Shown here piece after piece: positions 3,393 to 38,498 of a stretch of DNA of 64,000 bases. The notes beneath the pieces were generated by a model. The model made no database searches, was not told the origin of the DNA, and saw only the letters and a program-made list of their open reading frames with translations. This DNA is from a virus. The DNA lies in the IMG/VR virus record IMGVR_UViG_3300032770_000001, positions 251,931 through 315,930 of that record; one strand, given 5' to 3'. Made by a program: the position numbers and the translations under genes. How positions within the stretch are numbered: the stretch's first letter is position 1; each line of letters starts with the position of its first letter.

Positions 3393-4031
3393 ATGAAACG
3401 CACATTGATTATTGTTCTGCTCCTGCTGACTGCCAGCATTGCATGGGGTCAGACCATCGGCGATCAAATCAACGATCTGACCAAGCAACTCCAAGATGCT
3501 CAAGCCGCGTCAGAAAGCAACGGCGCAAAGATCAAGAAGCAAGCCGCCAAGCTGGACGACATCAAATTCGCTGCTGAGGCATACAAGAAGCAGAGCGCCC
3601 GTTTGCAGAACGACATCAACGATCTCAACATGCGAATTCAGCAGCACAATAACAACCGCTGCACCGAAACCTGCGATCAAAATGGCGGCAACTGCACGCA
3701 CAACTGTGGTGCGTACAACGCGGAATCGGCGTCCCTCAACAACGAAGCGGCCTCGTTGCAGCAACAAGGGCAGCAACTCGATCAGATTCAGCAGACCGTT
3801 ACTCAGCAATCACAGGAGTGGGTTGCGGAGACGAAAGAATTGCTGGCGGAAAATGATCGCCTGAACGCGCTCATCGCCAACATCCAATCGCGACTCGCTG
3901 ACCTACGCGGTCAGTACGATCAGTGTCGGGGTTCCATTCCGGTGACGTGTGACGCTCCGAACGATCCAATCCTCAACGAGAAGTGTGAGAAAATGCACGC
4001 TTCTTGTGGTCGGCTGTTCGACGGAAACTAA
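3393..4031 (+). CDS. exported coiled-coil protein with Cys-rich insert
   Basis: 212 aa, ATG after TAGGAG. Signal peptide 'MKRTLIIVLLLLTASIAWG'. The mature protein is almost entirely heptad-like with many Gln, Lys and Leu, so a long coiled coil. It is interrupted near residue 90 by four Cys and three His/Asn turns (CTETC...CTHNC) and has more Cys at the C-terminus. Disulfides or metal would suit an extracytoplasmic location. Function unknown; a spanin-like or cell-envelope role is only a possibility. Confidence 0.78.
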   Translation: MKRTLIIVLLLLTASIAWGQTIGDQINDLTKQLQDAQAASESNGAKIKKQAAKLDDIKFAAEAYKKQSARLQNDINDLNMRIQQHNNNRCTETCDQNGGNCTHNCGAYNAESASLNNEAASLQQQGQQLDQIQQTVTQQSQEWVAETKELLAENDRLNALIANIQSRLADLRGQYDQCRGSIPVTCDAPNDPILNEKCEKMHASCGRLFDGN

Positions 4032-4147
4032 TGCGAAAACTCGACAACAATTTTACGGCAGCGGTACGGCGACTATGGCCTATTGGGATCGTTTTCGCCA
4101 TCGTCCTTGGCGTGATAGTATCGTTTGCAGTGGCTTGGAGCCGCTAG
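4031..4147 (+). CDS. small single-pass membrane protein (38 aa)
   Basis: The ATG shares a base with the preceding TAA. A basic N-terminus (MRKLDNNFTAAVRRLW) is followed by one membrane segment (about residues 17-35) and a short SR tail. Size and topology fit phage small membrane proteins. No family recognised. Confidence 0.65.
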   Translation: MRKLDNNFTAAVRRLWPIGIVFAIVLGVIVSFAVAWSR

Positions 4148-4155
4148 GAGAAAAC

Positions 4156-4329
4156 ATGAAATTCATTCGCAACGTCGGATGGTGTATGTTCTTCATCGGG
4201 ATCGGCTGGTCGATTCGCAGCTTTTCCGATCCTAGCTACAACCTCGGTGCGGCAGTGATGGGCGGTCTTTTCGGCTTGGCTATCGCTCTCGGCTCCAACT
4301 ACGTTATCAACAAACGAGCGGCAAAATAA
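4156..4329 (+). CDS. small membrane protein (57 aa)
   Basis: ATG behind TAGGAG. Two hydrophobic segments (about residues 6-20 and 30-48) flank a polar turn, ending 'NKRAAK'. Translation passes straight into Thg1 (TAATG overlap). Function unknown. Confidence 0.7.
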   Translation: MKFIRNVGWCMFFIGIGWSIRSFSDPSYNLGAAVMGGLFGLAIALGSNYVINKRAAK

Positions 4330-5150
4330 TGTCTAACAGGCCAAAGAACGATGCTCTCGGCGACCGGATGAAGCGGTACGAAGACGTTTATCGTTTCCGT
4401 CTCCCCCGTCGCACTTACACCATTGTTCGAGTTGATGGTCGTGCGTTCCACACGTGGACGAAAAGATTGCAGCGCCCATACGATCTCGAACTGATCGATT
4501 GCATGAACGCAGCCGCCCTTGCCCTCTGCGAAGAAGTTGCCGGAGCCCGGTTCGCCTATGTGCAGTCCGATGAGATCAGTCTGCTGGCGACCGACTTCGA
4601 CCTCACGACCACACAGCCGTGGTTTGATGGTATCGTGCAGAAGTGGTGCAGCGTAGCGGCATCTATCGCGACGATGGCATTCAACGAAAAGGTGAGACAC
4701 TACCGTAACTGCGTTGATGGTTCGATGCTCATTAGCAAAAAAGAACCCAACGCAACGTTTGATGCTCGTGTGTTCACCATTCCTGACCACGTGGAAGTGG
4801 CGAACTATTTCGTCTGGCGGCAGCAGGACGCTGAGCGCAATTCGGTCGCGATGTTGGCGCAGCATTATGCCAGCCATAAAGAACTGCATGGCAAGGGCCG
4901 GGAAGAGCAGCATGAGGTCATCTATAAATACGGCGATAACTGGGCAAAGCACCCCGTTCGTTTTAAGCACGGTGCAGTTGTACGTCGTCATGTTGAATCT
5001 CTCTACTCAACGACCGCTTTCTCAGGTGGGTGGGCGGTTGATGATGCAACGCCGAAGTTTACGCGCAAGCGTGCGTACCTTGAGAACCTGATCCCTATTG
5101 CATGGGAAGGCGATTTGATTGAGCGCAAAGCCAAAGCGGAGGGTGTATGA
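4329..5150 (+). CDS. tRNA-His guanylyltransferase (Thg1/TLP family)
   Basis: 273 aa. Thg1-family enzymes add nucleotides in the 3'-5' direction, classically G at position -1 of tRNA-His; Thg1-like proteins can also repair tRNA 5' ends. Visible: 'TIVRVDGRAFHTW' (residues 31-43; metal Asp36) and 'AYVQSDEISLL' (76-86; Asp81, Glu82), both hallmark palm motifs, after 'DRMKRYEDVY'. Length is that of bacterial-type members. The same phage carries two tRNA-His genes (32100, 32188), both with an encoded G-1. Classification is secure; biological substrate is inference. Confidence 0.93.
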   Translation: MSNRPKNDALGDRMKRYEDVYRFRLPRRTYTIVRVDGRAFHTWTKRLQRPYDLELIDCMNAAALALCEEVAGARFAYVQSDEISLLATDFDLTTTQPWFDGIVQKWCSVAASIATMAFNEKVRHYRNCVDGSMLISKKEPNATFDARVFTIPDHVEVANYFVWRQQDAERNSVAMLAQHYASHKELHGKGREEQHEVIYKYGDNWAKHPVRFKHGAVVRRHVESLYSTTAFSGGWAVDDATPKFTRKRAYLENLIPIAWEGDLIERKAKAEGV

Positions 5151-5467
5151 AGAACGGAACACTTCGTCAGGTGAAAGTCAACGACCGTACCTACAAGTAC
5201 CGCGTCGTCAGCGAACTGTCTACCGAAGTCACTATGCCGGATGGCAAGACCATCACCGCAACCAATTGGGATGTCAAAGGGGTGCGGGAAGCGTTCTATC
5301 GCGACGAGTACCTCAACCCGGAGATTCATTACAATCTGCCGAAGGGGGATGAAGTCGTGGAGTTCGGCATTCGTCCGGCAGACGTGACGCGGTTCATCAC
5401 CGATGGCATCGAACGCAACCCGGATTTGTTCGATCCTATCGAAATCGCCGAGGGAGCCAATGCTTAA
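5147..5467 (+). CDS. hypothetical protein
   Basis: 106 aa, ATGA overlap with Thg1. Compact, acidic, predicted beta-rich; starts 'MKNGTLRQVKVNDRTYKYRV'. No family recognised. Co-translation with Thg1 may be positional only. Confidence 0.75.
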   Translation: MKNGTLRQVKVNDRTYKYRVVSELSTEVTMPDGKTITATNWDVKGVREAFYRDEYLNPEIHYNLPKGDEVVEFGIRPADVTRFITDGIERNPDLFDPIEIAEGANA

Positions 5468-6605
5468 TTTTCTCTTGCTCATGATCGTGCCAGTGCTGAT
5501 CGCTCTGGCTACCCTGCTGGTCTTCAAGGGCAAGATTCTGCTTTGGGAATTCGGAGCGCAGGTCGGCGTTGTCGCCCTTGTGATCGGTATCGCTCTTGCT
5601 GCGGCGTATGAGGGACGGACCGAGGATGTCGAGGTTTGGAATGGGCAGGTCACCAGCCGCCAACGGCATGAAGTTTCTTGTTCCCACTCCTATTCCTGTA
5701 ACTGCACCCCGGAGTACGACAGCAAGGGCAACTATACGGGAGAACACTGCGACACGTGCTATGAACACAACTACGACGTGGATTGGACAGTGTACGCTTC
5801 GACCGGAGAGTCCGTTGATATCGAACGCGAAGATCGACAGGGTTTGATCGAACCGAAGCGGTGGGACGCCGCGTACCCCGGTGAACCGTGGGCATCGGAA
5901 CATTCGTTCACGAATTACATCAAGGCAAACCCTGATTCCGTATTACTCGGTACCAAAGGCGACATGCAGAAGTGGGGCAAGCTGGTGCCGAAATACCCGG
6001 CAGATATCTACAACTATTACTACAACAACCCGGTCATCAACATGGGCGTCCCCGGCGTCAAGGTTGAGGAGTGGAACTGGCTGGTTCGTGAGATCAACAA
6101 GACTCTCGGACCGAAGAAGCAGGTTCACATCATCGTGATTCTGGTGCCGACTAACGACCGCAGTTACCTGTATGCCCTCAAAGATGCGTGGCTCGGCGGC
6201 AAGAAGAACGATGTGGACGTGGTCATCGGTTCACAGGACGGACAGACAATCGACTTCGCCGACGTGATGTCATGGAGCACGAACAAAGCTTTGACGGTGG
6301 AACTCCGTGACGACATCCAAGGCATCGGCAACCTGCTTCGCAAGGACGATATCGTTGCAGCCATCAATACGCGAGTCAGTGCTGACTTCGTCCGGATGCA
6401 CATGAAAGACATGAAATGGATCATGCGTTCGTACCAGCCCTCCTCGTCCACAATGATGTGGATTTTCATCGTTGGTACGATCCTGTCCGTTGGAATTTCA
6501 GTGTGGGCAGTCTACGCGGATTTAGGCGAAGATGATGTTGACCACGATTGGGGTCACCGTCGCTACGCCGCACGTTTCAAATTTGGGAACAGCTACTTCA
6601 ATTAA
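5460..6605 (+). CDS. membrane protein with Cys/His-rich extracytoplasmic domain (possibly TPM-like)
   Basis: 381 aa, ATG overlapping the previous stop region. Two N-terminal membrane segments (about 2-21 and 28-48) and one near the C-terminus (about 345-367) enclose a large soluble part with a Cys/His cluster (CSHSYSCNC...CDTCYEH). Residues about 215-315 (HIIVILVPTNDRSYLYALKD, later 'GGKKNDVDVVIG') recall the TPM domain usually found beside LemA. The LemA-like gene is next, which supports but does not prove that reading. Confidence 0.75.
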   Translation: MLNFLLLMIVPVLIALATLLVFKGKILLWEFGAQVGVVALVIGIALAAAYEGRTEDVEVWNGQVTSRQRHEVSCSHSYSCNCTPEYDSKGNYTGEHCDTCYEHNYDVDWTVYASTGESVDIEREDRQGLIEPKRWDAAYPGEPWASEHSFTNYIKANPDSVLLGTKGDMQKWGKLVPKYPADIYNYYYNNPVINMGVPGVKVEEWNWLVREINKTLGPKKQVHIIVILVPTNDRSYLYALKDAWLGGKKNDVDVVIGSQDGQTIDFADVMSWSTNKALTVELRDDIQGIGNLLRKDDIVAAINTRVSADFVRMHMKDMKWIMRSYQPSSSTMMWIFIVGTILSVGISVWAVYADLGEDDVDHDWGHRRYAARFKFGNSYFN

Positions 6606-6626
6606 ATCGAGTTCAGGAGAAAACAC

Positions 6627-7223
6627 ATGAAATACGCTCTGATCGTAATCGGGATTCTCGCGACACTTCTCGTCGTCGCCGGGATGGGTCTCGCCGTGGG
6701 TTACTGGAACTGGTCAAACGACTGCCGTACCGCCGAGCAGGAGATTCCGGGGCAGTACACCGAAATGCAGAATGCTTACGACAACGGCTGGAAGAAGGTC
6801 ACTGAGATCGCTCAGGTGCCGCAGCAGCAGATGGACAACTACAAGACCATCTACGACGGCGTCATGAAGGGTCGCTACGGTGCTGACGGTTCCAAGGCGC
6901 TGCTCCAGTTCATCAAAGAACAGAACCCGACGCTTGACCCGGTTCTGTACACGAAGGTTCAGCAGACCATCGAAATCTTCCACGACAGCTTTCAGGCGGC
7001 TCAGACAAAGTTGATCGCCGAGAAGGTCGCCTACAAGCAGTTGATGGACGTGGGCGCAGGTCGCGTTTACAACATCTTCGGCAGCTATCCGCGTATCAAG
7101 ATCGGCTACCCGGCTGGAACGCAGGATGACTTCCAGATTGTGACGAGCGACAAGACGCAGACCGACTTCCAGAATCACAAGTCGGCCCCACTAGACATCC
7201 GTCACCCTGAGAACAACAAGTAA
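6627..7223 (+). CDS. LemA-family membrane protein
   Basis: 198 aa. One N-terminal membrane anchor (about residues 3-28) precedes a long helical domain with the LemA pattern: regularly spaced aromatic/Asn turns such as 'YTEMQNAYDNGWKKV' and 'MDNYKTIYDGVM'. LemA proteins are bacterial inner-membrane proteins of unclear function, often paired with a TPM protein. RBS CAGGAGA. A phage LemA-like pair suggests interference with the host envelope. Confidence 0.7.
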   Translation: MKYALIVIGILATLLVVAGMGLAVGYWNWSNDCRTAEQEIPGQYTEMQNAYDNGWKKVTEIAQVPQQQMDNYKTIYDGVMKGRYGADGSKALLQFIKEQNPTLDPVLYTKVQQTIEIFHDSFQAAQTKLIAEKVAYKQLMDVGAGRVYNIFGSYPRIKIGYPAGTQDDFQIVTSDKTQTDFQNHKSAPLDIRHPENNK

Positions 7224-28621: not shown

Positions 28622-29082
28622 CGACATCAGGAACCCCGCAAGATCAAATGATGTTCCCGGAGAAGGCGACCTATGAGGTAATGCCTTCGCGAGAGCCGCA
28701 GAAAGAACCTCGCAAGCTAGAATTTCTATTCGCTGACGTTATGGGCGTCTGGTATTCCGCCCCGGAGACGTGGGTGCGCATGGATGGCTCCGAGAAAAAG
28801 CATGTAGAGCCGGGTCAGATCGGACTGCACATCAAGTGGGGAGCCAAGAACTACGGCTTCGGCGAGTACATCGTGCGGTTCATGACGGACGGTACGATCA
28901 AGGTGCATGACGAGTATGGCGGGCCGAATTTCTCGCAACAGCTTTTCGCATTCATCGGTGAACAGATTGCCAAAGGCGAACACGACCGCGAGAGAGACGC
29001 GAAGGAAACAAAATCGCTGGCAGAACTAGCGAAGGAAGTCGAAGAATCGAATGAAGGTTCTGGAACAACTCAAGGCGAATAA
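28561..29082 (+). CDS. hypothetical protein (173 aa)
   Basis: ATG chosen behind GGTGGA. Acidic; central domain about 45-145, low-complexity acidic tail ('EVEESNEGSGTTQGE'). It overlaps the nucleotidyltransferase gene by 32 bases. Function unknown. Confidence 0.72.
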   Translation: MSELEQDWKDRCDKIGVDPLTTSGTPQDQMMFPEKATYEVMPSREPQKEPRKLEFLFADVMGVWYSAPETWVRMDGSEKKHVEPGQIGLHIKWGAKNYGFGEYIVRFMTDGTIKVHDEYGGPNFSQQLFAFIGEQIAKGEHDRERDAKETKSLAELAKEVEESNEGSGTTQGE

Positions 29083-29989
29083 GTTCCCCTACGCGGGGAA
29101 CCTGATCCACCTGTTCAAGGCTGGCTCCGAACTCCACGGTGCCAAGGTCGAGGGCAAGCAGGATGAGGATTGGATGGGTGTGTACGTCGAGAGCCCCAAC
29201 ATGGTGATTGGGCTGGACGAATACCCCCACTACGTTTGGTCATCGGCTGGCGACCACGACAAGAACAAGCCGGGGGACATGGACATCACTCTTTACAGCC
29301 TGCGCAAGTGGGTCAAGCTGGCGTGCACGGGGAATCCTACGATCCTCGGCTGCCTGTTCGCTCCCAATGTGCTGGATAACGCGCATTGGAGCAAGGTTGT
29401 GGCGAAGAAGGATTTGTTCCTCGCCAAGTCCGTGGCTGAGCCGTTCCATGGTTTCGCCGATCAGCAGCTTAAGCGGGTGCTCGGCGAGAAGGGCAAGGGC
29501 AAGCATGGTCAGCGTCCCGAACTGGAGCAGAAGTTTGGGTACGACACTAAGGCTGCCATGCACGTGCTGCGGCTCCTCGGTGAGGGCGTGGAATTGTTGA
29601 TGGCGGGTAAGATCACCTATCCTCGTCCCAACACCAAGATTCTGATTGACTGTCGGCAGGGCAAGTTTGATTTGCCGTCTGTCAAGGGAATGGCGGATAT
29701 TCTCTTTGCCGATCTCGAACGGGCTCGACGCGAATCCGGACTGCCGGAGGAGTGCGACCGTGCGGGAGCTTCTCAGTTCTTGACGGATTTCTACCTTGAC
29801 TACTGGCAGCAACAGGAATCGCAGATGAACCGCGTTCTAGCGAAGGGAGTAAATCTTGCTTCCCGCTGGATCGCGGGACACCTGCGCGTGTGCCCTCTGA
29901 CTGACGGTCATCCGGCGTGGGAAGAGTGGAAGGAAGAAGATGTCGTGAAGATCGCCATGATCGATTTGGCGATGCGGAGCAGTGAATGA
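29051..29989 (+). CDS. predicted nucleotidyltransferase (DNA polymerase beta superfamily, RlaP-like)
   Basis: 312 aa. 'FKAGSELHGAKVEGKQDEDWMGV' (split around residues 24-46) carries the G-S then D-x-D arrangement of this superfamily, with DEDW as metal ligands. The following helical region ('GYDTKAAMHVLRLLGEGVEL') matches phage RlaP-type proteins. Such enzymes transfer a nucleotide to an unknown acceptor, RNA ends in some relatives. In a phage with many tRNAs a tRNA or RNA repair role is plausible but unproven. Confidence 0.8.
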   Translation: MKVLEQLKANKFPYAGNLIHLFKAGSELHGAKVEGKQDEDWMGVYVESPNMVIGLDEYPHYVWSSAGDHDKNKPGDMDITLYSLRKWVKLACTGNPTILGCLFAPNVLDNAHWSKVVAKKDLFLAKSVAEPFHGFADQQLKRVLGEKGKGKHGQRPELEQKFGYDTKAAMHVLRLLGEGVELLMAGKITYPRPNTKILIDCRQGKFDLPSVKGMADILFADLERARRESGLPEECDRAGASQFLTDFYLDYWQQQESQMNRVLAKGVNLASRWIAGHLRVCPLTDGHPAWEEWKEEDVVKIAMIDLAMRSSE

Positions 29990-32387: not shown

Positions 32388-32534
32388 GTGATCGCTGGCA
32401 GTCCGATTGATTTTGACTGCCCTCTTTGCGGCAAGCCGAAAGGCGTACCCTGCAAAGTCAGGATCGTGGAAGAGCAGATCGTAGAGATCGACTTCCATCT
32501 TGACCGCAAAAAGTTGACAAGATTGTCCGCATAG
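32388..32534 (+). CDS. small zinc-type protein between tRNAs (48 aa)
   Basis: GTG start (a TTG lies two codons earlier). 'FDCPLCGKPKGVPCKV' is a compact Cys motif found in many phage mini-proteins. The stop TAG is inside the next tRNA, so gene and tRNA overlap by ten bases. Confidence 0.6.
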   Translation: MIAGSPIDFDCPLCGKPKGVPCKVRIVEEQIVEIDFHLDRKKLTRLSA

Positions 32535-32601
32535 CTCAACTGGATAGAGCGCGTGCCTACGAAGCATGAGGTTGGGGGTTCGAGTCCCTCTGTGGACACC
32601 A
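32525..32601 (+). tRNA. tRNA-Arg(ACG), canonical copy
   Basis: Acceptor GTCCGCA/TGTGGAC, D-arm GCTC...GAGC, anticodon arm CGTGC-CTACGAA-GCATG, CCA. Anticodon A34 would need deamination to inosine by a TadA enzyme; none is seen in this window. Confidence 0.9.
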
Positions 32602-32606
32602 TATCA

Positions 32607-32681
32607 GGGGTGTATTGTCGGTTCGAATCCGGCTGGTCGTGGGTTTCACGATCATAGGCTCAAATGGTCAACCAACGCCCC
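32607..32681 (+). tRNA. candidate circularly permuted tRNA
   Basis: The 3' part of a tRNA comes first and the 5' part follows. T-arm GTCGG-TTCGAAT-CCGGC (32617-32633) is followed by acceptor 3' strand TGGTCGT (32634-32640), seven bases (GGGTTTC), then acceptor 5' strand ACGATCA (32648-32654), T8-A9 and a D-arm-like stretch with GG. ACGCCCC (32675-32681) then pairs with GGGGTGT (32607-32613), closing the anticodon stem. Both seven-base helices pair completely, each with one G.U. Anticodon cannot be deduced. A rearranged tRNA relic is the alternative. Confidence 0.5.
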
Positions 32682-32692
32682 GTCGTTTTTAT

Positions 32693-32779
32693 GCCTCCGT
32701 GTCGGCAACTGGATGCCACCCTCGCTACGAACGAGGAGCCCGAAAGGGAATGCAGGTTCGAGTCCTGTCGGGGGTTCCA
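32693..32779 (+). tRNA. tRNA with ACG anticodon (Arg?) and long variable arm
   Basis: Acceptor GCCTCCG/CGGGGGT, anticodon arm CCTCG-CTACGAA-CGAGG, T-arm GCAGG-TTCGAGT-CCTGT, CCA. The variable arm AGCCCGAAAGGGAATGC is long, unlike bacterial tRNA-Arg. Second ACG gene in the array. Confidence 0.75.
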
Positions 32780-34011: not shown

Positions 34012-34082
34012 CGTACCGTAGCTTAGTTGGCAGAGCGTCCGCCTTGGAAGCGGAAGACGCAGGTTCGAATCCTGTCGGCTTT
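34012..34082 (+). tRNA. tRNA-Pro(TGG) with defective acceptor stem (pseudo-tRNA?)
   Basis: D-arm TAGCTTAGTTGGCAGAGC, anticodon arm TCCGC-CTTGGAA-GCGGA and T-arm GCAGG-TTCGAAT-CCTGT are canonical, but CGTACCG and CGGCTTT pair for only three bases and no CCA follows. Downstream GGCTCCGG/CCGGAGCC forms another hairpin (about 34088-34127). Confidence 0.55.
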
Positions 34083-38414: not shown

Positions 38415-38498
38415 GGGGGCGTAGTCGGGGGGCTCTTCTAAAGCCTTAGCCGTAAACCGGAACTGCGAATGCGAGTTCGAATCTCGCCGCCCCTTCCA
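38415..38498 (+). tRNA. unusual tRNA, anticodon TCT (Arg), lacking a normal D-arm
   Basis: Acceptor GGGGGCG/CGCCCCT, T-arm GCGAG-TTCGAAT-CTCGC and CCA are good. GGGCT-CTTCTAA-AGCCT gives anticodon TCT, but only about seven bases remain for the D-arm, and a 20+ base variable region follows. Either a D-armless tRNA or a degenerate one. Confidence 0.55.

Follow-up and report, generated by a model that had tools for sequence, protein, structure and literature searches.

The DNA analysed here (the window) is a stretch of 64,000 nucleotides corresponding to bases 251931-315930 of a 455,708-base virus record (genome label G000). The carrier is a huge soil phage, and the element of interest is a small RNA placed between two ordinary tRNA genes. 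Its parts and neighbors are as follows (window coordinates).

32525-32601, + strand: upstream tRNA-Arg(ACG), its CCA ending five bases before the outer helix of the element (ARAGORN)
32602-32692, + strand: putative head-only tRNA-mimic RNA as a whole; ends predicted from processing of both flanking tRNA-Arg genes; match of 28.7 bits to covariance model R2
32607-32613, + strand: outer helix 5' strand GGGGTGT, in the anticodon-stem position (fold and sequence)
32617-32633, + strand: T-arm GTCGG-TTCGAAT-CCGGC, 5 bp with loop TTCGAAT (fold, descriptor, and sequence)
32634-32640, + strand: acceptor 3' strand TGGTCGT (fold, descriptor, and sequence)
32641-32647, + strand: closing linker GGGTTTC, without CCA, in which G-C gives an eighth pair (fold and sequence)
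32648-32654, + strand: acceptor 5' strand ACGATCA (fold, descriptor, and sequence)
32655-32674, + strand: T8-A9 (TA at 32655-32656), D-like arm with GG, and A26 (descriptor; three of four D-stem pairs)
32657-32673, + strand: D-like segment GGCTCAAATGGTCAACC (sequence)
32674, + strand: A (A26) after the D-like segment (sequence)
32675-32681, + strand: outer helix 3' strand ACGCCCC (fold and sequence)
32693-32779, + strand: downstream tRNA-Arg(ACG), a divergent second copy (ARAGORN)

The ends given for the whole RNA are those expected if the upstream tRNA-Arg is processed at its 3' end and the downstream one at its 5' end, while the permuted fold proper spans 32607-32681. The T-arm, acceptor strands, T8-A9, and D-like segment all lie, in permuted order, where the original prediction had placed them, and its claim of seven-of-seven pairing in both the acceptor and the outer helix is borne out, with no pair missing among the 19 of the T, acceptor, and outer stems. 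The tRNA-shaped fold with its ends in the anticodon arm that it proposed is exactly the shape of the minimum-energy structure, a permuted cloverleaf of -30.8 kcal/mol (z -2.7). Spacing matches that of a tRNA opened at the anticodon: the T-arm abuts the acceptor strand, TA precedes the D-arm, and a single A precedes the outer helix. The T-loop, TTCGAAT, is perfect; the weak part is the D-stem, where three of four pairs form and the fourth is a C-A mismatch.

Controls Against Chance

A permuted-cloverleaf descriptor matched the element as a single place in 259 kb of tRNA-rich phage sequence (bases counted over both strands) and matched nothing in 1.28 Mb of shuffled sequence; with looser thresholds, 3.5 Mb of shuffled sequence yielded no match with a score of at least 20. 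When 3' and 5' halves from different tRNAs of the phage were joined, one of 3422 combinations had 7/7 acceptor and 5/5 anticodon-stem pairs.

The covariance scan for permuted tRNAs proposed with the original prediction did find the element (model R1, 26.3 bits), but tandem tRNAs, in which the 3' half of one gene is followed by the 5' half of the next, also match the permuted order and reach about 47 bits or more in the genome and its relatives. Because of this mimicry scan scores alone prove nothing; R1 was rejected as stand-alone proof, and its matches were retained only if they lay outside canonical tRNAs. Users of permuted-tRNA scans should exercise caution, since such scans pick up Y RNA heads as well as tandem tRNAs. 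A Y-head covariance model (R2) built without the window sequence recovers the element at 28.7 bits (E 4e-7 in 86 kb), and for this reason the head is regarded as real. The search for close DNA relatives gave a single near-identical contig, and conservation of the window copy is seen in that contig only.

The Unlikely Case of a Permuted Decoding tRNA

In unicellular algae and an archaeon, circularly permuted tRNA genes have the 3' half ahead of the 5' half, as the element does; however, those genes have an anticodon and the bulge-helix-bulge that marks permuted pre-tRNAs, and mature via a circle (PMC3978253). At the junction of the element there is no bulge-helix-bulge, the outer helix being a continuous 7 bp without bulges, and the joined ends supply neither U33 nor an anticodon (the bases following the outer helix are GTCG and those preceding it TATCA). 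Position 33 is T in 9 of 27 permuted heads, which is near background. The complete neighboring tRNAs encode CCA, whereas the element has none, and its acceptor strands are joined by GGGTTTC into a hairpin. Elsewhere the genome holds about 64 matches to the Rfam tRNA model, representing nearly all isoacceptors. Lacking CCA and a U33 or anticodon loop, in a phage already supplied with some 64 tRNA matches, the element is therefore considered non-decoding, and the permuted decoding tRNA offered as one option in the original prediction finds no support.

For the locus to be a true circularly permuted tRNA gene, phage RNA ligases would have to join the ends in the anticodon arm, the acceptor hairpin would have to be opened, and CCA added. 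The phage encodes the following factors.

Window 4329-5147 and 29051-29986, and G000 160327, 216048, 324183, and 212686: a 'tRNA repair kit' of Thg1, RlaP, three RNA ligases (two PF09414 and one PF09511), and a kinase-like AAA_33 protein (PF13671)
Locus L039, 3129-3503: bacterial class A RNase P RNA (167 bits), adjoining tRNA-Gly genes

The kinase-like gene is close to the Rnl1-type ligase gene; a search of the phage for RtcB found none. Given this complement, enzyme grounds do not count against ligation. Nevertheless, the missing U33, anticodon, bulge-helix-bulge, and CCA, the nearly complete isoacceptor set elsewhere in the genome, and the association of relatives of the same fold with Rsr (see below) make a working permuted gene very improbable.

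Two other tRNA-type readings were tried and rejected. A linear tRNA using the outer helix as its acceptor would have no D-arm after the first strand, no fitting anticodon loop, and no T-arm before the outer 3' strand. ARAGORN finds no permuted tmRNA at the element, and the acceptor has no G3-U70 alanine pair, an absence that we take to speak against tmRNA.

Likeness to Bacterial Y RNAs

The option of a tRNA mimic, also put forward originally, is supported: bacterial Y RNAs have a head with this permuted fold, which related phages also carry next to Ro60/Rsr genes. The Rfam YrlA consensus (RF02553) is itself a permuted tRNA with the same helix order and aligns co-linearly to the element. Like the YrlA head, the element presents in succession an outer stem, T-arm, closed acceptor hairpin, UA, and D-arm, has no anticodon or CCA, and has its ends in the anticodon-stem position. 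With RF02553 it reaches 11.6 bits where the gathering score is 69, a threshold that the relatives also fail to reach (36-42 bits). Because R1 and R2 score the window head alike (26.3 and 28.7 bits), the data fit both descent from a Y RNA and a separate permutation of a tRNA.

Relatives with the arrangement, for which a search had been suggested, were found in phage G, Tunturi_5, and contigs G007 and G013. Among named records, Tunturiibacter phage Tunturi_5 has the major head protein nearest to that of the window phage, and it carries an unannotated, well-paired permuted element outside all called tRNAs (PP885688.1, 250148-250214). G007 and G013 are large IMG/VR contigs with related head proteins and, like Bacillus phage G, each carries the permuted fold; RF02553 scores are 36.2 bits for phage G, 38.8 bits for G007, and 41.9 bits for G013, two of the three matches extending over the full model length. 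In phage G the element (405231-405320) is found some 2 kb upstream of gp540, whose annotation is putative TROVE domain ribonucleoprotein, and G007 encodes a Ro60-type protein with TROVE and vWA-like parts. A second permuted element in Tunturi_5 (PP885688.1:253899-254012; L076:4950-5063) has a linker of about 50 nt and an acceptor helix of 5 bp.

Two pattern scans of viral contigs added about 20 further distinct heads outside canonical tRNAs. In 17 heads (16 from the scans plus G007) all helices stay paired through two-sided changes, with 19/21 pairs and a covariation of 0.91 versus 0.22 when shuffled and at most 0.21 when slid, although the percentage paired is partly built in because the heads were selected for T-loop, D-arm, and complementarity. 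Many of the scanned heads have a basal stem formed from both flanks and a TTACTTC or ACAGCAA motif in its 5' lower strand. Rsr genes occur in 19 of 210 pattern loci; a TTACTTC-type motif upstream of a T-arm is present in 17 of these 19 but in 5 of the 191 non-Rsr loci (Fisher p ~1e-18), and Rsr accompanies 12/44 loci with unmasked permuted heads versus 7/166 (p 3e-5). These associations indicate that phages carry the permuted fold mainly as a Y RNA head partnered with Rsr. Ro60/TROVE proteins and Y RNAs in phages have already been published or proposed (PMC7824862, PMC7765460, PMC12282133). At locus L362 (- strand, ~4000-7000), several Y-RNA-like units follow one another next to a large tRNA array and an Rsr gene.

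Phage Y RNAs that occur with Ro60/Rsr, such as that of the phage G gp540 region, share the permuted head and are found in phages with a related major head protein, but there a basal stem and a TTACTTC-type motif accompany the head and the genome encodes Rsr; none of these features was detected for the window copy. At the element there is no basal stem, the flank duplex being no better than that of shuffled flanks (p 0.35), and neither a TTACTTC nor an ACAGCAA motif. No Rsr was found in G000 by PF05731, a Pfam model that is weak even on the phage G protein, or by a two-sequence phage Rsr profile, searches by which divergent proteins could be missed. Further differences from YrlA are the degenerate D-stem, the position within a tRNA array, and a score far under the Rfam cut-off. 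The missing stem, motif, and detectable Rsr, together with the 11.6 bits obtained with YrlA, set the window copy apart from a full Y RNA; the element has the fold of a Y RNA head and would work like one, but its membership among Y RNAs is putative.

With longer flanks, GACAC and CATA on one side pair with TATG and GTGTC around the head, and a full Y RNA might accordingly draw its basal stem from distant or overlapping sequence, for instance by pairing of the flanking tRNA-Arg genes, in a phage whose Rsr is too divergent to detect. However, the pairing flank bases fall mostly inside complete tRNA-Arg genes, and the shuffled-flank comparison and the Rsr profile both speak against such an RNA, which we regard as highly unlikely. 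G013, Tunturi_5, and contig locus L392 likewise have heads of this kind that lack a clear basal stem and lie within or close to tRNA arrays, suggesting that these and the window copy can be read as a head-only class. At locus L208 of G013 (4110-4256), the anticodon arm of another tRNA-like sequence appears to enclose the Y-like head.

Origin and Possible Function

The element thus most likely imitates a tRNA; that it is a working tRNA gene in scrambled order is unlikely. Specifically, we favor, with a probability of about two in three, an orphan, head-only tRNA mimic with a YrlA-type head fold that is released from the tRNA array. Such a small non-coding RNA would consist of a tRNA core (the T-loop/D-loop elbow) and a closed acceptor hairpin, with its two ends at the anticodon-stem place. 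It would probably be co-transcribed with the array and cut loose as the tRNA-Arg transcripts on either side mature; release by tRNA processing on both sides is suggested because the element lies between tRNA-Arg genes, with its outer helix five bases past a CCA. The Ro60/Rsr-binding basal stem would have been lost or never present, unlike in the full Y RNAs of related phages. The look-alike could be neither charged nor cleaved in an anticodon loop and most likely would occupy tRNA-binding proteins, acting as a decoy for a host tRNA-targeting nuclease or tRNA-handling enzyme; a decoy for tRNA-binding enzymes seems the likeliest use because, without Rsr, only the tRNA elbow is left.

The main rival is a decaying relic that is now functionless, either a former Y RNA or the leftover of tandem tRNAs (the 3' half of one copy and the 5' half of the next), the latter in line with the rearrangement between neighboring tRNAs considered in the original prediction. 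The lack of Rsr and basal stem and the D-stem mismatch are consistent with decay, and half or broken tRNAs do occur elsewhere in the arrays, namely at 34016-34078, which is without acceptor ends, and as stray T-arms near L392 and Tunturi_5. Against decay, the T, acceptor, and outer stems retain 19/19 pairs, and the outer helix even exceeds an anticodon stem in length. Origin from a resident tRNA was also rejected, as neither half closely resembles any ARAGORN-called tRNA in the genome regions compared and hence no parent is left there. A relic is accordingly an unlikely, if serious, contender to the head-only mimic.

As Y RNAs in phages have been reported, what is new here is the head-only form: the Y RNA tRNA mimic exists in phages with Rsr and, apparently, without it inside tRNA arrays. 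The attractive but mistaken claim of a permuted tRNA gene in a phage thereby gives way to a testable one. More speculatively, and with considerable doubt, the tRNA arrays of huge phages of this group may release head-only Y RNA modules, free of Rsr, which can be neither cleaved nor charged and which the phages use as decoys against host defences that target tRNAs. A published discussion raises the idea that an anticodon nuclease is inhibited by the tRNA-like domain of YrlA (PMC7790460), and the window phage family lends itself to testing this.

Unusual tRNA Genes in the Phage

Several other tRNA-like genes of the phage depart from the canonical form. At G000:26227-26302 (L038, - strand), a tRNA-like gene with CCA has an anticodon arm consisting of a 7-bp stem and a GCAA tetraloop, with no anticodon; beside it are two suppressor-type tRNAs (CUA) and a tRNA whose position 33 is A. 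Within the window, a tRNA-Arg(TCT)-like gene (38415-38495) has no normal D-arm and a D-like stretch in its variable region; it was missed by ARAGORN and found by the genome-wide Rfam tRNA model. A tRNA-like sequence at G000:385701-385803 (L041; RF00005, 46.8 bits) bears two anticodon-arm-like hairpins with CCCTAAC and GTGTTAA loops. In the tRNA clusters of G000, many isoacceptors (His, Asn, Arg-ACG, Lys, Asp, Tyr, Phe, and Gln) occur as two divergent nearby copies, often one canonical and one odd.
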